A DNA stretch of 64,000 nt, from NCBI RefSeq assembly GCF_005144585.1, contig NZ_SSMQ01000018.1:62001-126000 (forward strand). The letters run 5' to 3'. The position numbers were made by a program, and so were the translations under genes. How positions within the stretch are numbered: position 1 is the first letter of the stretch; every line of letters starts with the position of its first letter. Source of the stretch: Polyangium fumosum. Lineage in GTDB: Bacteria > Myxococcota_A > Polyangia > Polyangiales > Polyangiaceae. This document shows positions 5,168 to 17,131 of this stretch, piece after piece. Under the pieces are notes generated by a model, which was given only the letters and a program-made list of their open reading frames with translations, did no database searches and was not told where the DNA came from.

Positions 5168-6789
5168 GCGCTCACCTCGGGCTTCGCGGCCCGATCCGCG
5201 TCACGGCTCGCGAGAGGCGCCTCGGGCGTCATCGCCCGACGCACGTCCGCGAGCGTCTTTTCGGTCATCGCGTAGCCGAGCTCCTTGCCGAGCTTCGCCA
5301 CGAGCTCCCAGCCCGGACGCGCGTCGCCGCGCGGCTTGAGCGCGCGCTCGCTCTTCTGGGCGAGGCCCTGGCGGTTGACGTACGTGCCGTCCGCCTCGGC
5401 CCACGCGGTCGCGGGCAGCGCGACGTGCGCGGCGCGCGCGAGCGGCCCGTCGTGCGCGGCGATCGTCACCACGCCCTTGAGCTTCGACAGCGCGCTCTCG
5501 GCGTCCTTCGCGTCGACCTCGATCTCGGCGCCGAGCGCGATCACGAACGAGTACTTGCCCGCCTTGATCGCGTCGAAGAGCGCCGCGATCGGCTTCGGCG
5601 CCGGCGCGCCCGCGAGCTGCATGACGCCGAGCGTGTTCGGGTTCTTGTCCTCGCTCATGAGGATCTTGTCGCCGCGACCGAGCGGACGACCCGACACGTA
5701 GAGGTCCTTCGCGCCGATGAACGTGCGCGCGAGCTTGAGGAGCGCGAAGTTGTCCTCGTTCGAATGCTGCGCGCTGAGCACGATGGCGACCCGGCCCGGA
5801 TCATCCTTGATGCCCGCGAGCTGATCCTTCGCCGCCGCGAGCGCCTCTTCGAGGCTCGCGTCCTCGCCGCCGACGAGCGCCGTGCCGAGGCGGCCTTCGA
5901 CCGCGCGCCGGTACGAGAGCATGCCCTCGTCGCACATCCAGTACTTGTTGACCTCTTCGTTGTCGCGCGGGCGGTGCCGATGCGGCACGTTCGACCGCGG
6001 ATCGTAGTCGAGGTACGCGTTGCAGCCCGTCGCGCAGCCCTGGCAGACCGTGCGCGCGCTGCGGAGGAACCACACGCGCGCCTTGAAGCGGAAGTCCTTC
6101 GAGGTCAGCGCACCGACGGGGCAGACGTGCTCCGTCATGAGCGTGTAGTCGTGGTCGAGCTCGCGGCCCGGCGAGACGACAATCTCGTTGAGGTTGCCGC
6201 GCTCGCGCACGCTGAGGACCGGATCCTTCGCGACCTCGGCCGTGAAGCGGACACAACGCGTGCAGATGATGCACCGCTCGGCGTCGTAGACGATGGTCGG
6301 CCCGAAATCGACGGCCTTCGGCTTGTGCACGACCTCCTGCTGCATGCGCTTGCCCGTGCCCTGGTGCTCCAGCCAGTAGTCCTGGAGCCGGCACTCGCCT
6401 GCCTGATCGCAGATCGGGCAGTCGACCGGGTGGTTCAGGAGCAACAGCTCCTGCACCGCGCCGCGCGCCTCCTCGACGTGATCGCTGCCCTCGGAGAGGA
6501 CCTCCATGCCGGGCGCGCAGGCCTGCTGGCAGGCAGGGACGAGCTTCGGCTTGCGGGCAGGGACGTAGTCCTTCTTCTCCGGATCCCAGCGCAGGATGTC
6601 GAGCTGCATCGCGGGGCGGCCGGGAGGCGGCGCGACCTCGACGAGGCACATGCGGCAGTTCGCCGCGACGGAGAGGCCCGGATGCCAGCAGTAGTGGGGG
6701 ATGTCGATGCCGGCGCGGTGCGCCGCTTTGATGATGGTTTCCCCTTGCTCGAAGGGGATCTCGCGCCCGTCGATCTTGATCGTAGCCAT
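5164..6789 (-). CDS. nuoG: NADH-quinone oxidoreductase subunit G, short form
   Basis: 541 residues, shorter than the usual 680-900. The N terminus has the [2Fe-2S] ligands (HYCWHPGLSVAANCRMC), then the His-ligated cluster motif HPVDCPICDQAGEC, then CIICTRC with HVCPVGAL, and CQGCATGCN. The molybdopterin-oxidoreductase-like part that normally follows is shortened to about 250 residues. The protein forms the iron-sulfur relay of the peripheral arm. It follows nuoD with a one-base gap; nuoE and nuoF, usually found between nuoD and nuoG, are absent here. Its stop overlaps the nuoH start. Confidence 0.94.
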   Translation of the reverse strand: MATIKIDGREIPFEQGETIIKAAHRAGIDIPHYCWHPGLSVAANCRMCLVEVAPPPGRPAMQLDILRWDPEKKDYVPARKPKLVPACQQACAPGMEVLSEGSDHVEEARGAVQELLLLNHPVDCPICDQAGECRLQDYWLEHQGTGKRMQQEVVHKPKAVDFGPTIVYDAERCIICTRCVRFTAEVAKDPVLSVRERGNLNEIVVSPGRELDHDYTLMTEHVCPVGALTSKDFRFKARVWFLRSARTVCQGCATGCNAYLDYDPRSNVPHRHRPRDNEEVNKYWMCDEGMLSYRRAVEGRLGTALVGGEDASLEEALAAAKDQLAGIKDDPGRVAIVLSAQHSNEDNFALLKLARTFIGAKDLYVSGRPLGRGDKILMSEDKNPNTLGVMQLAGAPAPKPIAALFDAIKAGKYSFVIALGAEIEVDAKDAESALSKLKGVVTIAAHDGPLARAAHVALPATAWAEADGTYVNRQGLAQKSERALKPRGDARPGWELVAKLGKELGYAMTEKTLADVRRAMTPEAPLASRDADRAAKPEVSA

Positions 6790-6790
6790 C

Positions 6791-8005
6791 TCAGTGATCG
6801 CACTCCCCGCCGATCATGTTGAGGGAACCGAACGTCGGGACGACGTCCGGGATCATCAGGCCCGTGATGAGCTGCTCGAGGCCCTGCGTGGTGGCAAAGC
6901 AGGGGGGCCGGATCCGCACGCGGTAGGGCGTGCCGCTGCCGTCGGAGACCAGGTAGAAGCCGAGCTCGCCGTTGCCCGCCTCGGTGTACGAGTAACACTC
7001 GCCCGCCGGGACCTTGATGCCCTCCATCACGATCTTGAAGTGCTGGATGGTGGCCTCGATGGTCGTGTAGACGTCCTGCTTCGGGGGCAGGATGATCCGC
7101 GGATCCTCGATGTTGATCGGGCCCTCGTCCGGCATCTGATCGAGCGCCTGCTCGATGATCCGCCACGTCTGCCGGATCTCCTCCTGGCGGCACATGAACC
7201 GGTCGTAGTTGTCGCCCGTCGTGCCCACCGGCACGTCGAACTCCATCCGGTCGTAGACCATGTACGGGTGCGCGCGGCGCACGTCGTACGGCACGCCCGA
7301 GGCGCGCAGAACGACGCCCGTCCACCCGAGCGCGAGCGCGTCCTCCTTCGACATCACGCCGACGCCTTCGAGGCGGTCGAGGAAGATGCGGTTCTTGAGC
7401 AGCATCTTCTCGCCCTCGTTGATGAGCTGGAGCACGCGCGGCACGCCCGCGCGGATCATGTCCTTGAAGTGCTTCGTCGGCGGGCTCGCCATGCCGCCCA
7501 CGCGACCGAAGCTGTGCGTGACGCGCGCGCCCGTCTCCTCCTCGAAGATGTCCCAGATGATCTCGCGGGCGCGAGCGAAGTAGAGGAACGGCGTGAACGC
7601 GCCGAGCTCCATGCACATCGCGCCCGAGCAGATCATGTGGTCGCAGATGCGCGCGAGCTCGCCGAGCGCCACGCGGTAGTACTGGCAGCGCTCGGGCACC
7701 GTCACGCCGAGCATCTTCTCCACCGCGAGCGCGAAGCCCACGTTGTTCAGCATCGGCGAGACGTAGTTGCAGCGATCGACGTACGGGAAGATCTGCGTCC
7801 AGGTGCCCCGCTCGCACATCTTCTCGAAGCCGCGGTGCAGGTAGCCGATCTGCACGTCGGCCTTCTGGATCATCTCGCCCGAGAGCTCGAGCACGATGCG
7901 CACCGTCCCGTGCATCGCCGGATGGGACGGGCCCATGTTGAGCATCATCGGCTCGCTGGGCAGCTCGAGGAGGCCCTCCTCGAGATCACGATCCAAGGGT
8001 TCCAT
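6791..8005 (-). CDS. nuoD: NADH-quinone oxidoreductase subunit D (49-kDa)
   Basis: 404 residues, a normal length. Clear signatures are NMGPSHPAMHGTVRIVLELSG at the N terminus and IGYLHRGFEK, plus a C terminus (DVVPTFGSLNMIGGECDH) matching the family end. The subunit descends from the large subunit of [NiFe] hydrogenases and forms the quinone-binding cavity with NuoB and NuoH. It starts 3 bases after the nuoC stop and ends 1 base before the nuoG start, so the operon is very compact. The start ATG at 8005 is the first in the frame near nuoC. Confidence 0.97.
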   Translation of the reverse strand: MEPLDRDLEEGLLELPSEPMMLNMGPSHPAMHGTVRIVLELSGEMIQKADVQIGYLHRGFEKMCERGTWTQIFPYVDRCNYVSPMLNNVGFALAVEKMLGVTVPERCQYYRVALGELARICDHMICSGAMCMELGAFTPFLYFARAREIIWDIFEEETGARVTHSFGRVGGMASPPTKHFKDMIRAGVPRVLQLINEGEKMLLKNRIFLDRLEGVGVMSKEDALALGWTGVVLRASGVPYDVRRAHPYMVYDRMEFDVPVGTTGDNYDRFMCRQEEIRQTWRIIEQALDQMPDEGPINIEDPRIILPPKQDVYTTIEATIQHFKIVMEGIKVPAGECYSYTEAGNGELGFYLVSDGSGTPYRVRIRPPCFATTQGLEQLITGLMIPDVVPTFGSLNMIGGECDH

Positions 8006-8008
8006 GGC

Positions 8009-8590
8009 TCAGTTCGTCTCCTCGCCCCGCGGGTAGTCGTGGGTCTGTCGCCCGAACGGCATGCCCTCGTCGATGCCGAAGGGGGGCAGCTTGTCGGGGA
8101 CGTTGCGCAGCTCGACGAGCGGCTGGATCTTGTCCGCCGGATAATCCTTGCGAAGCGGGTACCCGACAAACTCGGGGTACATCAGGATCCGCCGCAGATC
8201 GGGGTGGCCCTTGAAGTTCACGCCGAACATGTCGAAGCACTCGCGCTCGAACCAGTTCGCGCCTTTCCAGACGGGCACGAGCGAGGCGATGTCCGCGCCG
8301 TTCGCGTCCTCGTCGCCGATGCGCGCCTTCAGCCGGATGCGATGGTTTCGCTCCATCGAGCGCAGATGCAGCACGACCTCGAAGCGCGGCGTCTGCCGGC
8401 CGAGGTAGTCGACGGCGGTGAGGTCGACGAACATGTTCATCGCGCACTGGGGATCGTCCCGGAGAAACCGCGCGATCTCGCGCCATTTCTCGGGGTTCAC
8501 CACGGCCGTGTCGTCGCCGAACTGCGAGTGGGTCTCGTAGATGTCGTCGCCGAACTTGCTCTTCAGGATTTCGAGGACGCGCTTGCTCAT
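8009..8590 (-). CDS. nuoC: NADH-quinone oxidoreductase subunit C (30-kDa)
   Basis: 193 residues. The conserved block WFERECFDMFGVNFKGHPDL and the following PLRKDYP identify the 30-kDa subunit, which packs against NuoD in the peripheral arm. The chosen ATG (8588-8590, beginning MSKRVLEILK) overlaps the end of nuoB by 4 bases (ATGAGC), consistent with coupling. nuoC and nuoD are separate genes here, not the nuoCD fusion of enterobacteria. Confidence 0.95.
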   Translation of the reverse strand: MSKRVLEILKSKFGDDIYETHSQFGDDTAVVNPEKWREIARFLRDDPQCAMNMFVDLTAVDYLGRQTPRFEVVLHLRSMERNHRIRLKARIGDEDANGADIASLVPVWKGANWFERECFDMFGVNFKGHPDLRRILMYPEFVGYPLRKDYPADKIQPLVELRNVPDKLPPFGIDEGMPFGRQTHDYPRGEETN

Positions 8591-9174
8591 GTTGCGGTGC
8601 TCTTCTTGCCGAGCCTGACGAGGTTGCCCGCTTGCACGATCGGGTCGCGGCGCGGCTTGACGATCGCGGGCGTACGGTCGCCACGCGCGATCTTGTCCTG
8701 CAGCAGCAGAAGGCCATCGATCACGGCCTCCGGGCGCGGGGGGCAGCCGGGGACGTAGACGTCGACAGGGATGACTTTGTCGATGCCCGCGAGCGTCGTG
8801 TAGTTGTCGTAGAAGCCGCCGCACGACGCGCACGTGCCGAACGCGAAGACGTACTTCGGGTCCGCCATCTGCTCGTAGATACGCTTGAGCGCGGGCGCCT
8901 GGCGCTGGCTGATCGTGCCCACGACCCAGAGCAGGTCCGCCTGGCGCGGCGAGAAGCGCGGCGCCTCGGCGCCGAAGCGCGCCATGTCGAAGCGCGGGCT
9001 CGCCATGGCCATGAATTCCATCGCGCAGCACGCCGTGATGAACGGGTACTGGAACAGCGAGTACTTCCTCGCCCAGTTCAAGAGCGCATCGAAGCGCGTC
9101 GTCGCGAACCCGGTCTCCGATCCCTCGAGGACCTGGATCGTCGTGCCAGCGCCGCCAGTGGTCATTTCTCCCAT
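8587..9174 (-). CDS. nuoB: NADH-quinone oxidoreductase subunit B (20-kDa)
   Basis: 195 residues from the ATG at 9174. The ligands of cluster N2 are present: tandem cysteines in ITACCAMEFM, then FGTCASCGG and VPGCPPRPEAV. NuoB passes electrons to quinone. I prefer the ATG at 9174 because GGGAG lies 7 bases upstream; a second ATG at 9165 overlaps the nuoA stop codon exactly (ATGA) but its ribosome site is too close. Either way the gene overlaps the end of nuoA. Confidence 0.95.
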   Translation of the reverse strand: MGEMTTGGAGTTIQVLEGSETGFATTRFDALLNWARKYSLFQYPFITACCAMEFMAMASPRFDMARFGAEAPRFSPRQADLLWVVGTISQRQAPALKRIYEQMADPKYVFAFGTCASCGGFYDNYTTLAGIDKVIPVDVYVPGCPPRPEAVIDGLLLLQDKIARGDRTPAIVKPRRDPIVQAGNLVRLGKKSTAT

Positions 9175-9521
9175 TCGAGGGCTCCCTTCTTCCAGATGTA
9201 GAGCAGCGCCACCACGAGCATGAGGATGAACGAACCCATGGTCGCGAGGCCGATCCAGCCGAGGTTCTTGAACTCCACCGTCCACGGGTAGATGAGCACC
9301 GCTTCGATGTCGAAGACCACGAAGAGGATCGCCGTGAGGTAGAACTTGACGCTCGGCTTGACGAAGCGGCCGCCCGTCGTTTCGCTCCCGCACTCGTACG
9401 GGATCATCTTCTCCGGCGTCGGGTTCTTCGGTCCGAGCACGGTGCTGATCGTGAACAAGGCGCCCGCGAGGACCGCCGCCACGATGAAGAGCAGGAACAG
9501 GGGGACGTAGGTGGACAACAT
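9162..9521 (-). CDS. nuoA: NADH-quinone oxidoreductase subunit A
   Basis: 119 residues with three membrane helices. The conserved blocks are PTPEKMIPYECGSET, with the loop Cys whose accessibility changes in complex I, and FYLTAILFVVFDIEAVLIYPW. It is the first gene of the operon. The ATG at 9521 is preceded by GGAG with 6 bases spacing; this ribosome site is the last of three exact 9-base repeats. Confidence 0.96.
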   Translation of the reverse strand: MLSTYVPLFLLFIVAAVLAGALFTISTVLGPKNPTPEKMIPYECGSETTGGRFVKPSVKFYLTAILFVVFDIEAVLIYPWTVEFKNLGWIGLATMGSFILMLVVALLYIWKKGALEWEK

Positions 9522-9526
9522 CGTTT

Positions 9527-9553
9527 GCTCCGGGTGCTCCGGGTGCTCCGGGT
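9527..9553 (-). repeat. Triple 9-bp repeat carrying the nuoA ribosome binding site
   Basis: Three exact tandem copies of ACCCGGAGC on the minus strand lie directly in front of nuoA. Each copy contains GGAG; the copy nearest the start is correctly spaced to act as the Shine-Dalgarno sequence. The other two could serve as spare or standby sites, or be a simple slipped-strand expansion. A short hairpin (GGGTAC, 5-base loop, GTACCC) lies just upstream, around 9550-9566. Confidence 0.75.
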
Positions 9554-9641
9554 ACGTGGTGTACCCGGTTCTGGTGCCGACCGAGAAGGTGCGGACCTCT
9601 CTCGCGATCGCTCGCGATCACGAGCGGGCGCTGGCAGGCTC

Positions 9642-9670
9642 CGAGATCACACGAAATCCGTGCGATCTCG
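9642..9670. promoter_or_regulatory. 12-bp inverted repeat upstream of the nuo operon
   Basis: Arms CGAGATCACACG and CGTGCGATCTCG flank a 5-base AT-rich centre (AAATC), with one mismatch in 12 pairs. It sits about 120 bases upstream of the nuoA start. No T tract follows on either strand, so a dimeric regulator's operator is more likely than a terminator. No regulator gene is adjacent to suggest which protein binds. Confidence 0.5.
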
Positions 9671-9753
9671 GCACAATCGCCGCGGCTATGTAGCTTTGGC
9701 GTTCTGGGGTGTCAATTGGGCGGCCAGGGTGTATGGGGGCTCCAGGAGCCCGG

Positions 9754-10872
9754 TCAACTCCGGGAGCTCAACACGAGCCCACGGAACGCCGTCAGCGCCG
9801 TGCCGAGCCGGGTCTCGATCTCGCGGATCTCCTCGATGAGCTCGGCGTCGGGCACGCCCGCCGCGCGGGCCTCCCGCACACACGCGAACGCGGCCACGTA
9901 GCGCTGCCGCTTCACGTACGCCTTCGCCAGGAGCGGCCAGATGAGCTTGGGCGACGCGCCGAGGCTCGCCGCGCGCCGGAGGCCGCCGATGGCCTCCCCT
10001 GCTCGCCCGTTCTCGAGCTGCGCCTCCCCGAGACGGCGGAAGATGTCCGCCGCCGCTGCGCCATCCTGCGCGTATTGCACCGCGAGGCGCATGACCTCCT
10101 CGCCTTGATGCTCTTCGCCGAGCTTGACGCATGCCGTGCCGAGGAGGCCGAGCCCCTTCGCGATGAGCGCACGCGCATCACTCGTGAGCATTTGCCCCTC
10201 GGGCGTGCGAAGGAAGATCGCGAGAGGCGCCGGCCACGCGCCGAGGAGCTGCACCACGCGCGACCAATCGTTGCGCTGGCTCGCCGCCTCGGCCTCCGCC
10301 ACGCGCGTCAGATCGATCGCCGAGCGTGAGCCCGCCGAGGCGCGCTCGAGCTCCTCGCGCACGTGCGCTCGGATGCGCGCGCGGAACTCGCTGAGCTCGT
10401 ACGTTTGCTCGAGGCCGTCGCGCAGCACGAGCAACCTCGACGTGCGACCGTCGACGTAGAGCTTGCGCAGGCTGTAGCCGAAGAGCGGCGCGAGCAGGAG
10501 GTAGCGGACGCCGATGTGGAGCTGCAGCGCCTCGATGTCCGTGTCGCGCTCCGGCGGGCCGGGCGTCGCGTCCTCGGTGAGGAGCGCGCCGACGAGCCGA
10601 TGCCGGAAGTCGGCCAGCGTCAACCGCTGGACCTCGCTGTCTTCTTCCTCGTCGCCCGGAGGCGCGATGACGAAGTCCACGAGGGTGTTGTCGGGGTTGC
10701 GGCGGTCGACCGTGAGCGCGGTGATGCGCGCTCCCGTGATCATCGAGAAGGCGAAAAACGTCTCGCCGACGATGTCGCAGAGAGCCTGAAAGCTGCCGAT
10801 CCCATCGCCGATGCGCTCGAACCAGCCGTCGGTGCGGACCGCATCGAGAGAGAAAACTCGTTCCTTCGCCAT
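9754..10872 (-). CDS. Conserved protein with TPR-like C-terminal half
   Basis: 372 residues from the ATG at 10872 (MAKERVFSLDAVRTDGWFER). I do not recognise a named family. The N-terminal ~250 residues are mixed alpha/beta with an acidic patch (GDEEEDSEVQ); the last ~130 residues look like helical TPR or SEL1-type repeats (IFRRLGEAQLENGRAGEAIG, AKAYVKRQRYVAAFACVREA). No signal peptide is visible, so it is probably cytoplasmic and a scaffold. It is transcribed toward nuoA but a regulatory gap separates them. Longer upstream starts exist but have arginine-rich, unlikely sequence. Confidence 0.7.
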   Translation of the reverse strand: MAKERVFSLDAVRTDGWFERIGDGIGSFQALCDIVGETFFAFSMITGARITALTVDRRNPDNTLVDFVIAPPGDEEEDSEVQRLTLADFRHRLVGALLTEDATPGPPERDTDIEALQLHIGVRYLLLAPLFGYSLRKLYVDGRTSRLLVLRDGLEQTYELSEFRARIRAHVREELERASAGSRSAIDLTRVAEAEAASQRNDWSRVVQLLGAWPAPLAIFLRTPEGQMLTSDARALIAKGLGLLGTACVKLGEEHQGEEVMRLAVQYAQDGAAAADIFRRLGEAQLENGRAGEAIGGLRRAASLGASPKLIWPLLAKAYVKRQRYVAAFACVREARAAGVPDAELIEEIREIETRLGTALTAFRGLVLSSRS

Positions 10873-11077
10873 GAGCGGGAGATTGGGGAGAGTCGCACGA
10901 GCCGCGCGGGATGTCACCGCCCGTGGTCGTCGCCGCGAGCAGTCTTGCCCGTCCCACGGGTCGCCGAAAAGCCCCCTTCTGCGAAGAATTTTGTGGCTCT
11001 TGCCACAACGAGCACACAATCCGGGGGGCAAGCCCACCAATCGGCGCGTCGCCCGCGAATTTTGCGCACTTGCGTGC

Positions 11078-12061
11078 TCAGGTCGCCGGGCGCGCGCTAG
11101 CGGAGGCACGCACGTGGCGCTTGGGGCGCGCGCCGATGTTCGCCACGTCGAAGCTCACGCTGCCACCGAGGCTATCGCTCGACCCGCCCTTGCCGATGTT
11201 CGTGCCGCCCGTGCTGCCGTCCGGCATCTGGAGCTGCGAGACGACCTCGACCATCACGATCGCGCCCGCCGCATACGACTCCGGCAGCGTGAACTGTCGG
11301 CTCGCGAGCCGCCCGCTCACCGCGCCCGCGACTGCGCTCCAGTCGCCCGCGTTCCCCGCCGACGAACGCACGACACGCACGCTCGCCACACGACCGCCGG
11401 GCGCGATGCGCACTTCGAGCGTCGCGCGCGAGACGTCGGGCGTGCCCGAGCCGCGCACGACGTCGGAGACGACACTCGCAATCGTGCCCGCGCCTGGCAG
11501 ATCCAGGCCGAGCTGTCGATCCTTCTCGCGCATCACGTCGGAGATCACGCGGCCCGCGATCTTGCGATCGACCTCGGGCGGAGGGCCGACCGTGGTGGGC
11601 GCGGGCTTCGGCTTGCCCGTCTCGGGGATGACGCCGGGCATCGCCCACACGGGCCCGCCGAGGCCCGGGATCCCAGGGCCCCCGCCGGGCACCGCGGGCG
11701 GCGGCGCGCCGTACTCGTCGGGCGGCGCGGCCGAAGGCATCGCCGTGGGCACGGGCTCGACCTGCTGCGGCTCGACGGTGTTCGGCTGCGTGTTCGGCTC
11801 CACGACGCGCGGATCGACCGCGTCCGTCACGCGCGGACGCGTATCGTTCATCGCGACGGCGGGGTCCTGCGGACGCTCGAAACGAGGTTCGTCCGGGCGC
11901 ATCGGCTCGATCGGAACGTCCTCGATGTCGATCTCCATGCGCCGCGCCATGCCGCTCGAGATCGCGAGGAGCGGGCCATTCGGCCGCGGCGCGACCCGAG
12001 CGACGACCGGGATGAAGAAGTGCAGCCCGGTGGCGACGAGGACGAACGGGAGAAAGCGCAC
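11078..12061 (-). CDS. TonB-like / AgmX-type C-terminal domain protein
   Basis: 327 residues starting with GTG; a stop codon lies immediately upstream, which fixes the start. It has one N-terminal membrane segment (FLPFVLVATGLHFFIPVVA), then a proline- and acid-rich stretch (about residues 45-150), then a folded C-terminal domain. There, LEVRIAPGGRVASVRVVRSS and FTLPESYAAGAIVMVEVVSQ resemble TonB and AgmX/PglI C-terminal domains. Such proteins reach across the periplasm to outer-membrane partners. No exbBD genes are adjacent. The last ~40 residues are rich in Gly and Ser. Confidence 0.6.
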   Translation of the reverse strand: MRFLPFVLVATGLHFFIPVVARVAPRPNGPLLAISSGMARRMEIDIEDVPIEPMRPDEPRFERPQDPAVAMNDTRPRVTDAVDPRVVEPNTQPNTVEPQQVEPVPTAMPSAAPPDEYGAPPPAVPGGGPGIPGLGGPVWAMPGVIPETGKPKPAPTTVGPPPEVDRKIAGRVISDVMREKDRQLGLDLPGAGTIASVVSDVVRGSGTPDVSRATLEVRIAPGGRVASVRVVRSSAGNAGDWSAVAGAVSGRLASRQFTLPESYAAGAIVMVEVVSQLQMPDGSTGGTNIGKGGSSDSLGGSVSFDVANIGARPKRHVRASASARPAT

Positions 12062-12175: not shown

Positions 12176-13171
12176 TCAGCCTTCGAGGCGAGTGACGGCG
12201 CGCTCGACGAGGGCGGGGACCATCTCGCGGCGCCACTCGGTGTCGTCGTCGACGTTCGGGAGGGGCTTGCACTCGGCGTAGGCGCCCTCGGCGAGCTCGC
12301 GCGCGGCGACGTCGAAGGGCGTCCCAGGACGGACGTTCGAAGCGGCGCGGACGCGGCGCGGGCGAGCACCGAGCGCCGAGACGACGACGTCCGCGGCGTC
12401 GACGCGCGGGGTCTCCACGCCCGAGACGTCGAGCCGGACGGCGATCGAGAGCAGCGGGAAGTCGATCGCGTTCCGGCGCCGGAGTTTTTCGAAGCTCGAA
12501 CGGCGACCGGGGCGGCGCGTGATCGAGACACGCACGACGAGTTCGCCGGGTTCGAGCACGGTGTTCTTGATGCCGTCGGCCACGTAGAAATCGTGGGCGG
12601 CTACGATGCGCGCGCCGCGCGGGCCGAGGAGGTGGAGGTCGGCGTCGAGCGCGATGAGCGCGGGCGCGGTGTCGTTCGAGGCGGCGGCGACGCAGCGCGA
12701 TCCGCCGCGCACGACGTGGCAGACGGTGCCGTCCTTCTTGAGGCAGAAGCCCAGCGATTTGCGCCAGAAGTAGGTCTGGTTGTAGTAGCGGCAGCGCGTG
12801 TCGAGGCAGATGTTGCCGCCGAGCGTGCCCATGGCGCGGTGGTGCGGTCCGCCGACCTGGCCCGCGGCCTCGGCGAGCGCGGGCGCGACGCGGCGCACGA
12901 GGATCGAGCTCTCGATCTCGGCGAGGCGCGCGCCGGCGCCGAGGACGAGCTTGTCGTCGTCGCCCTCGCGGTCGAGCGAGATGCCGCGCAGCTCGTCGAT
13001 GCCGGCGATGGAGACGACGTGGTCGGGCTCGACGAGCCCGTGCTTCATGTTGGGCAGCACGTCGGTGCCGCCCGCGAGGACGACGGCCTTGTCGCCGAGA
13101 CGCGCGAGCAGATCGAGCGCCGCCGAGAGGGTGCGTGGCCTGTGATGATCGAAGACGGGCAGCGGTAACAC
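12176..13171 (-). CDS. hcrB: 4-hydroxybenzoyl-CoA reductase beta-like subunit (FAD plus extra 4Fe-4S)
   Basis: 331 residues. The FAD-binding fold of xanthine dehydrogenase medium subunits is seen in VVLAGGTDVLPNMKHG and MGTLGGNICLDTRCRYYNQT. Unlike ordinary family members it has the cysteine-rich loop of HcrB: C127-x15-C143-x7-C151-x8-C160 (with RYYNQTYFWRKSLGFCLKK between). From memory, the Thauera HcrB [4Fe-4S] ligands have the same spacing; that cluster lets the enzyme work at very low potential. It is the last gene of the operon, 7 bases after hcrA. The Leu-Pro start (MLPLPVFDHH) fits the family. Confidence 0.85.
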   Translation of the reverse strand: MLPLPVFDHHRPRTLSAALDLLARLGDKAVVLAGGTDVLPNMKHGLVEPDHVVSIAGIDELRGISLDREGDDDKLVLGAGARLAEIESSILVRRVAPALAEAAGQVGGPHHRAMGTLGGNICLDTRCRYYNQTYFWRKSLGFCLKKDGTVCHVVRGGSRCVAAASNDTAPALIALDADLHLLGPRGARIVAAHDFYVADGIKNTVLEPGELVVRVSITRRPGRRSSFEKLRRRNAIDFPLLSIAVRLDVSGVETPRVDAADVVVSALGARPRRVRAASNVRPGTPFDVAARELAEGAYAECKPLPNVDDDTEWRREMVPALVERAVTRLEG

Positions 13172-13178
13172 GAGGACC

Positions 13179-15509
13179 TCACTCCGCCGCAGCAGTCGCG
13201 GTGGCTTGCTCGTCGGCTTGCTTCTTTCGAAGGGCCGAAAGGACTCGCGCGGGCGAGAAAGGGAGCCTGTCGACGCGTACGCCGACGGCGTCGAAGATGG
13301 CGTTCGCGATGGCCGGGATCGACGGATGCAGCGGACCTTCGCCCGACTCCTTCGCGCCGAGCGGCCCCTCTTGATCCTCGGACTCGACGATGAGCGCGTG
13401 CAGGTCGGGGACGTCGAGGCTCGTCGGGATGCGGTAGTCGAGCAGGTTCGGCCCCTTGTGCAGGCCGTCGGGTCCGATGACGTGCTCTTCGAGCAGCGCC
13501 TCGGCCGCGCCCATGTACGCCGATCCTTCCATTTGCCCCTCGACGATCGTGGGACAGAGGGCCTTGCCGCAGTCGTGCGCGACCCAGATCTTCTCGACGC
13601 GGACGAACCCCGAGCGCGCGTCGACCGAGACCTCGGCGACGTGCGCGGTGAACGAGTACGCGGGCGAGGCGCCGATGGTGCCGCCGCGGTACTCGCCGCC
13701 GAGCTTCGGCGTGTTGTAGTGGCCGACGGCGCCGAGCGTGCCGAACTTCGCCTCGGCGAGCTGGATGGCCTCGGTGACGGAGACGCCGCGGGCCGGGTCG
13801 TGCACGACGACGAGGGCGCCGCGCGTGACGAGCACGTTGCGCGGATCGACGTCGAGCTTCTCGGCGACGGCGGCGACGAGCTTGCTCTTGATCTCGCGCG
13901 CCGCCATCAGGCACGCGTTGCCGTTCATGAACGTGCCGCGCGAGGAGTAAGCGCCGAGGTCGACGGGCGTGAGGTCCGTGTCGCCCGAGATGACGCGCAC
14001 CGACCCGAGATCCAGGCCGAGCTCGTCGGCGACGAGGACGGCGAGCATGAGGTCGCAGCCCTGGCCGATCTCGCTTTGACCTGAAAAGACCGTCACCACG
14101 CCCGAGCGATCGACCTTGAGCTGCACGGCGCTCTGCGGCATCGCGTTCGGGTAGATCGCGTAGTTCGTCCCGCTGATGTACGCGCTCGTGGCCACGCCGA
14201 GCCCGCGCCCCTTGGGCATCTTGCCAAAGCGGTCTTTCCAGCCGCTCGCCCTCTCCACGGCGTCGAGGCATTGCTCGATGCCGTTCGAGGTGACGCGCAG
14301 GCCGTTCAGCGTGGTCGTGTTCGGCGGGACGAGGTTCTTCCGGCGGAGCTCGATCGGATCGATCACGAGCGCGCGGGCGATCTTGTCGAGCGAGACCTCG
14401 AAGGCGAAGCGCGGCTGCACGCTGCCGTGGCCACGCTTCGGGCCGCAGGGAGGCTTGTTCGTGAAGAGGCGCGTCGAGCGGAAGCGGTAGGTGTCGGCGA
14501 ACGCGGGCAGCGTGAGGAGCTGGCCCGAGTAGTAGGTCGTGACGAGGCCAAACGAGGAGTACGCGCCGCCGTCGATGAACGTGCGCGCGTCGACGCCGGT
14601 GAGCTTGCCGTCGCGCCTCGCGCCGACCTTCATGTGGATCTGCATCGGGTGCCGCCCGCGATGCGCGTAAAACTCCTCCTCGCGCGTGTAGAGGAACTTC
14701 ACGGGGCGGCCCGTGACCATCGCGAGCTTGGCGGCGCAGAACTCGAGCGAGAAGGGTTCGCTCTTGCCGCCGAAGGCGCCGCCGACGGGCGGCTGGATCA
14801 CGCGGATGCGCGTGGGCGGCACGCGCAGGACGCGCGAGAGCTCGCGGTGCAGGTAGTGCGGGACCTGCGTCGTGGACCAGACCGTGAGCAGGCCGTTCTT
14901 GTCGAGGTTCGCGATGGCGCAGTGGGTCTCGATCGGGACGTGCGCGCTGCCCTCGTAGTAGTAGTCGCCCGCGATGACGACCTCGCTCTCCGCGAGCGCG
15001 GCGTCGACGTCACCGAACGCGAGGTCGACCTCCTTCGAGACGTTGTCCTTGCCGCCCTTGCCGAGCCCGACCTCGGGTTTGTCGATCGCGGTTTGCAGAT
15101 CCGTCGCGGCCGGCAGCACCTCGTACGCGACGTCCACGAGCTCCGCCGCCTCGTGCGCGATGCGCTCGTCGGTCGCGGCGACGGCGGCGACGGCGTCCCC
15201 GACGAAGCGCGCGTGGTCGAGGGCGAGCGGGTACTCGTCCGGCGTCCAGGGGATGATGCCGAAGCGCTCGGGCATGTCCTTGCCCGTGATGACCGCGAGC
15301 ACGCCGGGCTTCGCCAGCGCGCGTGTCGCGTCGATGCGCACGATGCGCGCATGGGGATGTGGCGAGCGGACGATCCGACCCCAGAGCATGCGCGGCAGGT
15401 GGATGTCGTCGGTGTAGCGGACCTGCCCGGTCACGCGCGGCGCGAGCAGCGTGCGCGTGCGGCTGCCGACGAGACCTCGAAGCGCACTCGGCTTTCGCGT
15501 GTCCGTCAT
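13179..15509 (-). CDS. hcrA: 4-hydroxybenzoyl-CoA reductase alpha-like (molybdenum) subunit
   Basis: 776 residues, normal for the molybdopterin subunit of this xanthine dehydrogenase family branch. Motifs include IQPPVGGAFGGKSEPF, the block EEFYAHRGRHPMQ, FTNKPPCGPKRGHGSVQPRF (very HcrA-like) and, near the C terminus, the active-site region KESGEGPLHPSIPAIANA with its glutamate. The family enzyme removes the para hydroxyl of 4-hydroxybenzoyl-CoA to give benzoyl-CoA. The ATG at 15509 begins 2 bases after the stop of the fusion gene, so the three open frames form one operon. No CoA ligase or ring reductase is nearby; substrate is inferred. Confidence 0.85.
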   Translation of the reverse strand: MTDTRKPSALRGLVGSRTRTLLAPRVTGQVRYTDDIHLPRMLWGRIVRSPHPHARIVRIDATRALAKPGVLAVITGKDMPERFGIIPWTPDEYPLALDHARFVGDAVAAVAATDERIAHEAAELVDVAYEVLPAATDLQTAIDKPEVGLGKGGKDNVSKEVDLAFGDVDAALAESEVVIAGDYYYEGSAHVPIETHCAIANLDKNGLLTVWSTTQVPHYLHRELSRVLRVPPTRIRVIQPPVGGAFGGKSEPFSLEFCAAKLAMVTGRPVKFLYTREEEFYAHRGRHPMQIHMKVGARRDGKLTGVDARTFIDGGAYSSFGLVTTYYSGQLLTLPAFADTYRFRSTRLFTNKPPCGPKRGHGSVQPRFAFEVSLDKIARALVIDPIELRRKNLVPPNTTTLNGLRVTSNGIEQCLDAVERASGWKDRFGKMPKGRGLGVATSAYISGTNYAIYPNAMPQSAVQLKVDRSGVVTVFSGQSEIGQGCDLMLAVLVADELGLDLGSVRVISGDTDLTPVDLGAYSSRGTFMNGNACLMAAREIKSKLVAAVAEKLDVDPRNVLVTRGALVVVHDPARGVSVTEAIQLAEAKFGTLGAVGHYNTPKLGGEYRGGTIGASPAYSFTAHVAEVSVDARSGFVRVEKIWVAHDCGKALCPTIVEGQMEGSAYMGAAEALLEEHVIGPDGLHKGPNLLDYRIPTSLDVPDLHALIVESEDQEGPLGAKESGEGPLHPSIPAIANAIFDAVGVRVDRLPFSPARVLSALRKKQADEQATATAAAE

Positions 15510-15511
15510 GG

Positions 15512-17131
15512 CTAGCCCTGCCTCCCCTCGCGCGAGCTCTTGTTCGAAGGCAAAGGCGGAGGCGTGTTCTCGATCCCCGGCAGGCCCACGCCCGCCTCCG
15601 CCTCGCCGCGGCGGATCTTCGCCGCCAGCTCGATCGCGTCGATGATCTTCCCGTAGCCCGTACAGCGGCAGAGGTTGCCCGCGATCGCGCACTTGATCTC
15701 GTCGCGCGTGGGCCGCGTGTTCCGGTCGAGCAGCGCGGTCGCGGTCATGAGCATGCCGGGCGTGCAGAACCCGCACTGCCCGCCGCCGAGCCTGTCGAAG
15801 CCGTCGAGGAGCGCGTCGATGTGCGGCGCGCCTTCAAGCGTCTCGACCGTGCGGACCTCCTTGCCGTCCGCATCGAGCGCGAGCGTGAGGCAAGAGAGGG
15901 TCGCGACGCCGTCCACGACGACCGTACACGCGCCACAATCCCCCTTGTCGCAGCCCTGCTTCGTGCCGACGAGGTCGAGGTCGTACCGCAGCGCTTCGAG
16001 GAGCGTCCTGCGCGCAGGGACCGCGAGCGCGACGGCGCTGCCGCCGATCTTCATGCACATCGGTACGAGTTTTTCCATGGGCTCCAAGGGCTCGGATGCA
16101 GACGCATCTTCGGGCGTCGCGCGGTAGGGGCGTACCTCGAAACGCGCGCCGCGCATGTTCGCGCCGGCGATCGGATGCCCCGCGGGGATGGGATATCGGA
16201 GCGCGCGGGAAGCAAGCTCGCAGTACTCGACGAGGCGCGCCTCGGGGACACGGGGGCGCGCGCCGAGGAGGCCGAGGTTCTCGACGAGCAATTCGAGGCT
16301 CGTGTTGCCGACCCGCTCGCCGACGCCGAGGCCCGTGCCGTGCACGCGATCGACGCCCCGCGCGGCGGCCCATAACGCGTTCGGCAAGCCGATGCCGCGG
16401 TCGTTGTGCCCGTGCCAGTCGAGCTCGACGTGCCGCGCGCCGAGCTCGTCGAGGGTGTGTCGCGCAAACCCGACGAGCGCCTCGATGCCGTACGGCGTGA
16501 CGTGGCCGGTGGTGTCGCAAAGGCAGATGCGGCTCGCGCCGGCGTCGATGGCGGCGCTGTAGAGGCTGCGGAGGACGTCGGGGTTCGAGCGGGTGGTGTC
16601 CTCGGTGACGAGACAGAACGGCAAGCCCGCGGCCTTGGCCTCCCGCGCGGCGGCGGTGATGGCGCCGAGGAGGAAGTCCGTGTCCCACCCTTCGACGGCG
16701 AGGCGAATGGGGGAGCTGCCGATGAAGGCGTAGACCTCGATGGGGATCCCGGCGCGATCGGCGGCGCGGGCGATGCCGTGGACATCGGCGACGACGGTGC
16801 GCGCGGCGGCGGTGGGGACGAGGCCGAGCTTGGAGCGGACGATCTCGCGGCAGAGGAGGAAACAATCCTCGGCATTGGCGAGGCCGGCGGCGGGGAGGCC
16901 GACGCTGACGACATCGACGCCGATCGCGGCCATGGCGTAGAGCAGATCGATCTTCTGCGCGGCGTCGGGCTGATGGCCGGCCGCGCTCTGCAAACCATCC
17001 CGGAGGGTCTCGTCGACGACCTTGATCGGCCGCACCCTGCGCGCGAAGTCGCGTCGCACAGGCCCACCGGAGAGGGAAATTGCGTGGCCCGATGCATCGA
17101 CGAACGGGACGCTGTCGTTCCAGTCGTACAT
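15512..17131 (-). CDS. DRE-TIM synthase domain fused to an HcrC-like [2Fe-2S] subunit
   Basis: One uninterrupted frame of 539 codons. Residues ~36-330 are an isopropylmalate/homocitrate synthase-like barrel: VDETLRDG (39-46), the metal motif H240-x-H242-N-D, and GLGVGERVGNTSLELLVENL (267-286). The usual C-terminal regulatory domain is absent. After a linker (~331-357), residues ~360-500 are a complete [2Fe-2S] subunit: C394, C399, C402, C414, then C453, C456, C488, C490, with the family's C-x2-C-x31-C-x-C spacing. It is upstream of hcrA and hcrB and supplies the otherwise missing small subunit. An internal ATG at residue 352 with GGAG three bases before it could also yield a free small subunit. 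Start chosen at MYDWND; upstream frame is arginine-rich. Confidence 0.85.
   Translation of the reverse strand: MYDWNDSVPFVDASGHAISLSGGPVRRDFARRVRPIKVVDETLRDGLQSAAGHQPDAAQKIDLLYAMAAIGVDVVSVGLPAAGLANAEDCFLLCREIVRSKLGLVPTAAARTVVADVHGIARAADRAGIPIEVYAFIGSSPIRLAVEGWDTDFLLGAITAAAREAKAAGLPFCLVTEDTTRSNPDVLRSLYSAAIDAGASRICLCDTTGHVTPYGIEALVGFARHTLDELGARHVELDWHGHNDRGIGLPNALWAAARGVDRVHGTGLGVGERVGNTSLELLVENLGLLGARPRVPEARLVEYCELASRALRYPIPAGHPIAGANMRGARFEVRPYRATPEDASASEPLEPMEKLVPMCMKIGGSAVALAVPARRTLLEALRYDLDLVGTKQGCDKGDCGACTVVVDGVATLSCLTLALDADGKEVRTVETLEGAPHIDALLDGFDRLGGGQCGFCTPGMLMTATALLDRNTRPTRDEIKCAIAGNLCRCTGYGKIIDAIELAAKIRRGEAEAGVGLPGIENTPPPLPSNKSSREGRQG

Follow-up and report, generated by a model that had tools for sequence, protein, structure and literature searches.

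4-Hydroxybenzoyl-CoA reductase (HCR), represented by HcrABC of Thauera aromatica (1rm6), is a three-subunit enzyme with two [2Fe-2S] motifs and a four-Cys [4Fe-4S] loop. A likeness of this complex, with all of these features, is encoded in a stretch of 64,000 nucleotides from the soil myxobacterium Polyangium fumosum (assembly GCF_005144585.1, contig NZ_SSMQ01000018.1, positions 62,001 to 126,000; hereafter the window), but here the small subunit has a 353-residue N-terminal extension that holds a DRE-TIM barrel. The described enzymes closest to that barrel are isopropylmalate synthase (IPMS), homocitrate synthase (HCS) and methylthioalkylmalate (MAM) synthase, with which it has in common the fold, the motifs RDGxQ, HxHND and GERxGN, and the catalytic Arg and Glu. 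It differs from them in lacking the C-terminal lid His and a regulatory domain, and from Escherichia coli LeuA in having SSPIR, TEDTTR and DWHGHNDRG at the corresponding sites. 3-Hydroxy-3-methylglutaryl-CoA (HMG-CoA) lyase likewise consists of a DRE-TIM barrel (about 300 residues), has no synthase lid and contains the motif RDGLQ, but the window's barrel lacks its cysteine loop and matches its fold less well. DmpG–DmpF (1nvm), in which a DRE-TIM enzyme and a redox enzyme form a stable complex, serves as an analogy only: unlike the fusion described here, DmpG and DmpF are separate chains, the partner is an aldehyde dehydrogenase and no molybdenum is present.

Results

The fusion is real and recurs across one family

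The fusion gene reads through for 539 codons without a stop, as the original prediction had claimed without giving a strand; it lies on the minus strand, and frame 1 of the plus strand of the same stretch contains a stop. Pfam assigned HMGL-like to residues 36–300 (E 3.9e-38), Fer2 to residues 362–413 and Fer2_2 to residues 428–501 (E 4.2e-25). The barrel motifs TLRDG (42–46), HGHND (240–244) and GERVGN (271–276) are in place, and the two [2Fe-2S] motifs have all eight of their Cys, in agreement with the HcrC-type domain that had been predicted.

When the order to which P. fumosum belongs was examined for recurrence, as had been proposed, the one-frame fusion was found in at least 16 of 183 genomes, distributed over nine genera of a single family. 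All six genomes of the window's genus carry it (89–100% identity), as do G130, G109, G069, G168, G169, G111, G114, G070, G113 and G090 beyond the genus; barrel identity to the window ranges from 50 to 98% across the 16, and the contig of G114 starts within the barrel. This count is a lower bound, paralogues having been classified in part only. Fusion-bearing contigs L001–L003 from metagenome-assembled genomes correspond to G069, G168 and G111 and add nothing to the 16. In a sample of 377 genomes of the phylum, no fusion was detected outside the order at an E value of 1e-88 or better, a threshold at which a diverged fusion could be missed; the matches in G191 and G239 were to the barrel alone. 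Among 1465 plasmid records, the sole one covering at least 80% of the query was a Buchnera leuA (H69), 20% identical and not a fusion. That two genes were joined artificially by misassembly or a frameshift is hardly credible; this explanation was rejected, as was chance, because an identical one-frame architecture recurs in 16 genomes whose barrels have diverged to this extent. Homologues are thus not confined to separate genes, although such genes exist too, and the fusion of a barrel to an HcrC-like subunit is real.

Ratios of nonsynonymous to synonymous substitution (dN/dS) against five congeners were 0.09–0.14 for the barrel, 0.09–0.21 for the [2Fe-2S] domain and 0.17–0.37 for the linker between them. 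These ratios indicate that the barrel is under purifying selection, and within the genus the linker evolves faster than both flanking domains. No report of a DRE-TIM barrel/HcrC-like fusion was found in the literature on hydroxybenzoyl-CoA reductase, among the matches listed, which bears out the prediction that the fusion is undescribed, and the word 'benzoyl' does not occur in the accessible part of PMC11821767. The fusion is a new combination of known parts.

The barrel keeps a synthase active site but lacks the lid

In fold comparisons the barrel was closest to MAM synthase, HCS, IPMS and citramalate synthase (Z about 30–35 over ~270–310 residues); Z reached 29.5 with DmpG-type aldolases and 27.5 with HMG-CoA lyase. 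By sequence, too, it was closest to IPMS, HCS and MAM synthase, and it scored under every NCBIfam synthase cut-off (best 123.2 of 532, among 25 of 32 families listed), as did the long paralogue described below. Assignment as an HMG-CoA lyase was not supported: the barrel loop, GLGVGERVGN, has no Cys, and PRK05692 was not among the 25 of 32 families listed.

Alignment of the fused barrels showed that R44, D45 and Q48 are kept in all 15 that reach this region, and E177, T207, H240, H242 and N276 in all 16. All eight residues are also present in 23/23 short and 54/54 long unfused barrels, while N243 is variable. Mapped from MAM synthase, R44 is the catalytic Arg, D45, H240 and H242 are metal ligands, and Q48, E177 and T207 are active-site Gln, Glu and Thr residues (accessible part of PMC11532901). 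The metal Asp and HxH and the catalytic Arg, Gln and Glu of a synthase are therefore present in the fused barrel, but the C-terminal lid with its catalytic His (and Tyr) is absent. The lid His motif, GVHA, occurs in none of the 16 fused and none of the 23 short barrels but in all 54 long ones. The short/long split was first made by the lid motif itself and was redone with tail length as the sole criterion: among unfused barrels, tails of up to 81 residues (24 sequences, including the fragment L025b) had no GVHA and one loose match, in L136, while tails of at least 117 residues (54 sequences) had GVHA in every case and a YxxVP-like motif in 51. Two fragments of L025 were left out of the class counts. 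The lid His column of the long forms aligns with that of E. coli LeuA; their lid Tyr (YSSVP-like) was matched to LeuA by motif likeness, not in one column.

The importance of the lid is documented for MAM synthase, in which the catalytic lid His is His388: the H388A variant had no detectable activity, H388N had a 29- to 42-fold lower kcat/Km, Y399S lost activity, and the residue equivalent to E177 holds the lid Tyr (PMC11532901, same part). Because the lid with its catalytic His is absent, the fused barrel, judged by alignment, probably does not act as a Claisen synthase by itself. Of the synthase-like barrel that had been predicted as complete, the barrel itself stands and the lid does not, and the proposed coupling of a Claisen condensation to the reductase is weakened. 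Invariance of the eight residues nevertheless indicates that the active site is under strong constraint despite the absent lid. The idea that fusion caused the loss of the lid was rejected because lid-less short barrels also exist as separate genes.

In a free tree, from which L025, L025b, L096 and L141 were left out, HCR-linked short barrels were placed in several positions, and a single clade of all short and fused sequences was not rejected (approximately unbiased test, p-AU 0.126). Parsimony on this tree gave three changes between long and short, four between fused and not fused, and ten between HCR-linked and not linked. The root is unreliable because E. coli LeuA forms a very long branch (8.56).

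An HCR-like reductase core

The [2Fe-2S] domain of the fusion superimposed on 1rm6_C with a Z of 26.4 and a root-mean-square deviation of 1.3 over 157 aligned residues (50% identity), and through this domain 1rm6 was also the best PDB sequence match of the whole fusion (147 bits). The hcrA-like subunit matched 1rm6_A with 607 bits (next match, 289) and the hcrB-like subunit matched 1rm6_B with 196 bits (next, 104). All three xanthine-oxidase-family subunits (molybdenum, FAD and [2Fe-2S]) are thus present, each best matched by HCR. The four-Cys [4Fe-4S] loop is complete in the FAD subunit of the window, and the four Cys are kept in 47/47 distinct related FAD subunits aligned over at least 280 residues when aligned columns are compared (a regular expression alone found 39/47).

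Operon, linker and internal start codon

The two reductase genes follow the fusion as closely as had been predicted: the hcrA-like ATG (15509) lies 2 bases beyond the TAG stop of the fusion (15514–15512), and the hcrB-like GTG (13171) lies 7 bases beyond the end of the hcrA-like stop (13179). Features of the locus are collected in Table 1. Downstream of the operon, a NuoB-like (Oxidored_q6) open frame occupies 8587–9621 of the minus strand of the window.

Table 1. Coordinates in the window of the fusion gene, its domains and the adjoining reductase genes.
Feature	Position	Strand	Basis
Fusion gene, 539 aa: N-terminal DRE-TIM barrel, linker and HcrC-like [2Fe-2S] domain	15512..17131	-	translation, Pfam, NCBIfam, genome comparison
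DRE-TIM barrel, residues 36-311, without C-terminal lid	16199..17026	-	Pfam, alignment, predicted structure, fold comparison
Linker, residues 326-353, holding ATG352 at 16076-16078	16073..16156	-	pLDDT, dN/dS
HcrC-like domain, residues 354-510, two [2Fe-2S] motifs	15602..16072	-	Pfam, PDB match
hcrA-like molybdenum subunit, best PDB match 1rm6_A	13179..15509	-	Pfam, NCBIfam, PDB sequence match
hcrB-like FAD subunit, best PDB match 1rm6_B	12176..13171	-	Pfam, NCBIfam, PDB sequence match
Four-Cys loop of the HCR-specific [4Fe-4S] cluster, FAD subunit residues 127, 143, 151 and 160	12692..12793	-	alignment

The linker is predicted to be flexible, confidence in the predicted structure (predicted local distance difference test, pLDDT) falling below 50 at residues 325–339 and 345–349. 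It contains the ATG at codon 352 from which a free small subunit had been proposed to arise. The codon exists, but with its GGAG-like site it is found in four of the six members of the genus, and the site is not kept in the other ten fused genes. A start codon with a purine-rich match somewhere in the linker region occurs in 12 of the 16 fused genes (including the four with ATG352), a frequency for which the chance expectation was not computed; no such start was found in the linker region of the remaining four (L088, L095, L103 and L133). Translation of a free small subunit from an internal start is neither supported nor excluded by these comparisons.

Barrels and reductase genes are linked in several layouts

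An HCR-type FAD subunit (at least 241 bits; next lower match, 178 bits) was found in 39 of the 183 genomes, and in 28 of these a barrel lies in the HCR locus, fused in 15 and as a separate gene in 13. The latter include G077, in which the barrel is ~10–14 kb off with HGD-D (benzoyl-CoA-reductase-type) genes between. A second barrel match lies elsewhere in five of the 39 (G143, G018, G085 and G086, read as short; G084, not read). Separate barrels occur upstream of hcrC (L017, which is G053, L018, L021, G153, G155 and G156), downstream of the FAD gene (L026, G048 and G049) or divergent from hcrC (G001, G050, G051, G173, G175, here twice, and G177); in G001 the FAD match is on a different contig from the barrel. 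In L162, which shares a contig with L017, the gene after the FAD gene is MobA-like. Gene calls in these loci are mechanical open reading frames (ORFs), some of them antisense, such as an L129 ORF that matches no family and has the real gene on the opposite strand.

L026 (bacterium CPR1) shows another in-frame join: at 6152–11182 the [2Fe-2S] and molybdenum subunits share one frame, the FAD gene comes next and then a long barrel as a gene of its own, and this stretch is near benzoyl-CoA-type degradation genes. Short barrels without an HCR-type FAD match were found in at least seven genomes (G162–G165, G115, G079 and G146). In Sorangium and relatives (L124–L126 and L098–L101), the lid-less barrel is 60–65% identical to that of the window, again with no HCR-type FAD match.

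Benzoyl-CoA genes in the same genomes

BoxB matches were present in all 16 fused genomes and in 38 of the 39 with an HCR-type FAD subunit. HGD-D (PF06050, which covers 2-hydroxyacyl-CoA dehydratases as well) was matched in 3/16 fused genomes, class-II (Bam-type) benzoyl-CoA reductases not having been searched for. Of the 13 genomes in which the linked genes are separate, 12 had BoxB and ten HGD-D; in the window's genus the figures were 6/6 and 0/6. The BoxB family cut-off was exceeded in 106 of 109 genomes, some matches being fragments that fall short of it, and co-occurrence within the order is confounded by kinship, so that these are counts only and not proof.

Barrel and hcr genes lie near benzoyl-CoA-reductase-type genes in L018, L021, L026, G077, G153 and G001. 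In L021 a BcrAD-type ATPase gene and an HGD-D gene are close by, and inspection and clustering placed ring-hydrolase-, alcohol-dehydrogenase- and dienoyl-CoA-hydratase-like genes beside them; L018 resembles this neighbourhood by clustering. L026 has two enoyl-CoA-hydratase genes and one alcohol-dehydrogenase gene by Pfam, and one of its ORFs clusters with the L021 HGD-D gene. In G077, G153 and G001 the HGD-D matches are on the same contig. A stretch of G143 (C46:22620–32438), whose barrel lies elsewhere, carries HGD-D, HCR-like genes and BoxB together, thereby joining anaerobic and aerobic benzoyl-CoA routes.

A long paralogue and leucine-type genes

Only three PF00682 matches were found in P. 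fumosum at E 1e-8: an HMG-CoA lyase (contig C142; PRK05692, 410 of 246 bits; Cys loop GGCPY), the fusion, and a long, lid-bearing synthase paralogue without a regulatory domain (L082; C185:8321–9199). Since the sole other matches are the lyase and the fusion, the long paralogue is probably the leucine-pathway synthase of these bacteria, with the HCR-linked barrels as its relatives, and a role for the barrel in 2-oxo-acid elongation accordingly stays viable. P. fumosum also has a LeuB-like dehydrogenase (L232; C2:13470–14477; 367 of 393 bits) and, on another contig, an aconitase/IPM-isomerase family gene encoding one chain in LeuD–LeuC order (C111:270503–272488). The window's relatives may make leucine with this unusual set of long paralogue, one-chain isomerase-family protein and LeuB-like dehydrogenase.

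A second barrel match was present in all 16 fused genomes, in G111 as contig-edge pieces only, and the four that were read (G000, which is P. fumosum, G152, G130 and G070) are long and lid-bearing. Aconitase-family genes occur in 123 of the 183 genomes, 118 of which also have a barrel match; eight genomes have the barrel alone and five the aconitase-family gene alone, counts that are likewise confounded by kinship. Such a gene neighbours the fused barrel of G113 and short barrels of G115, G079, G050, G051 and G175; in the last three it is an additional copy in the genome. On a Streptomyces sp. KN37 plasmid (NZ_CP139046.1; L223:14884–16155), a long relative of the barrel (44% identity) was seen in a nonribosomal peptide synthetase/polyketide synthase cluster, among aconitase-family, IPM/isocitrate dehydrogenase-family and crotonyl-CoA carboxylase/reductase genes; these genes may form a module that elongates 2-oxo acids for a natural product.

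Discussion

The reading that we favour, tentatively, is that of an HCR-like reductive aryl-CoA dehydroxylase to which a lid-less, metal-dependent C–C bond barrel is tethered, with benzoyl-CoA delivered to the Box route. Electrons would pass from FAD through the [4Fe-4S] cluster to the [2Fe-2S] domain of the fusion and on to molybdenum, where the para-hydroxyl of a hydroxy-aryl-CoA would be removed. The benzoyl-CoA formed would go mostly to the aerobic Box pathway in fused species and often to a benzoyl-CoA reductase in unfused relatives. Less surely, the barrel may be a working C–C bond enzyme whose substrate is a 2-oxo acid or CoA thioester from the pathway of the reductase; it would either cleave instead of condensing or use the lid of a second protein, for example the long paralogue. 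As in DmpG–DmpF, taken as an analogy, the tether would keep the two enzymes together in a single complex. Cleavage of a 3-hydroxy-3-aryl-propionyl-CoA, by analogy with HMG-CoA lyase, was considered, as was synthesis of citrate or homocitrate to feed ferredoxin reduction by 2-oxoglutarate:ferredoxin oxidoreductase, as in Thauera.

Several observations weigh against this tethered-enzyme reading. The HCR of Thauera is oxygen-sensitive, a poor fit to aerobic hosts. All three subunits score under the cut-offs of the NCBIfam HCR equivalogs TIGR03193, TIGR03194 and TIGR03195 (156.5 of 257.8, 823.5 of 994.55 and 267.5 of 404.55 bits), which is why we term the complex HCR-like and not HCR; the substrate of the reductase may therefore differ from 4-hydroxybenzoyl-CoA. 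The barrel dN/dS rises to 0.40 against G109, of another genus, at a high dS (0.61). Six of the 39 HCR genomes (G021, G022, G078, G082, G083 and G087) have a single barrel match at E 1e-40, and it is unlinked; L021 has no FAD gene found beside hcrC and hcrA, and the L018 stretch ends after hcrC. The Sorangium-type genomes G162–G165 retain a short barrel and give no HCR-type FAD match, so that a barrel can serve without the reductase. As to the substrate, other compounds are plausible for an HCR-like core because a 2025 paper (accessible part of PMC12771579) counts Ucdh, which acts on urolithin C, as second after HCR among reductive dehydroxylases of the xanthine oxidase family.

The absence of the lid, a linker predicted to be flexible and attachment to the electron-transfer subunit would all suit a catalytically idle docking or sensing domain that binds CoA or a 2-oxo acid and positions or regulates the reductase. 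We consider this unlikely, since the eight metal- and substrate-site residues are invariant, dN/dS is near 0.1 within the genus, and unfused forms persist, some of them in genomes without HCR. Doubtful to a similar degree is a barrel with a metabolic role of its own, in leucine-like or other 2-oxo-acid metabolism, whose fusion only ensures co-expression with the reductase. Such a role would accord with the Sorangium-type short barrels, with the aconitase-family neighbours, and with the long paralogue, isomerase-family and LeuB-like genes of P. fumosum, where the three PF00682 matches include no further synthase; against it, HCR-linked barrels mostly form their own branches in the tree, and linkage to hcr genes recurs as fusion and as upstream, downstream and divergent neighbours.

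An ordinary Claisen synthase, which would start a 2-oxo-acid elongation tied to the reductase by condensing acetyl-CoA with a 2-oxo acid to a 2-alkylmalate, is improbable. The closest folds and sequences are those of such synthases, R44, Q48 and E177 are invariant, and aconitase-family genes lie near the fused barrel of G113 and near several short ones, as they do, with an IPM/isocitrate dehydrogenase-family gene, beside the Streptomyces plasmid relative. The lid His motif, however, is missing from every fused and short barrel, and the corresponding MAM synthase variants H388A and Y399S were inactive, though H388N kept some activity. The aconitase-family gene of P. fumosum is on a different contig from the fusion, and two of the short-barrel genomes with such a neighbour, G115 and G079, are without an HCR-type FAD match.

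Within the tethered-enzyme reading, the specific proposal that the lid-less barrel is completed in trans by the lid of the long paralogue, the electron-transfer subunit recruiting a half-synthase, seems more improbable still. The invariance of E177 in lid-less forms would fit it; the second barrel of the fused genomes is weak evidence for it because the paralogue is common in the order anyway. If true, it would describe a two-enzyme complex joining acyl-CoA C–C chemistry to aryl-CoA dehydroxylation in bacteria with the Box pathway.

The physical joining of a synthase-type DRE-TIM barrel to a reductive molybdenum hydroxylase is conserved, and these two enzyme classes were not linked in the literature found. 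The fusion places an HCR-like dehydroxylase in genomes with a BoxB match, mostly without an HGD-D match, and is a natural case in which to see how a Claisen-type DRE-TIM barrel functions when its catalytic lid is gone and its other active-site residues are kept. It also points to an unrecognised step in myxobacterial aromatic-CoA metabolism. Because the join is conserved across many species, the fusion is likely to matter for how these soil myxobacteria handle aromatic compounds.

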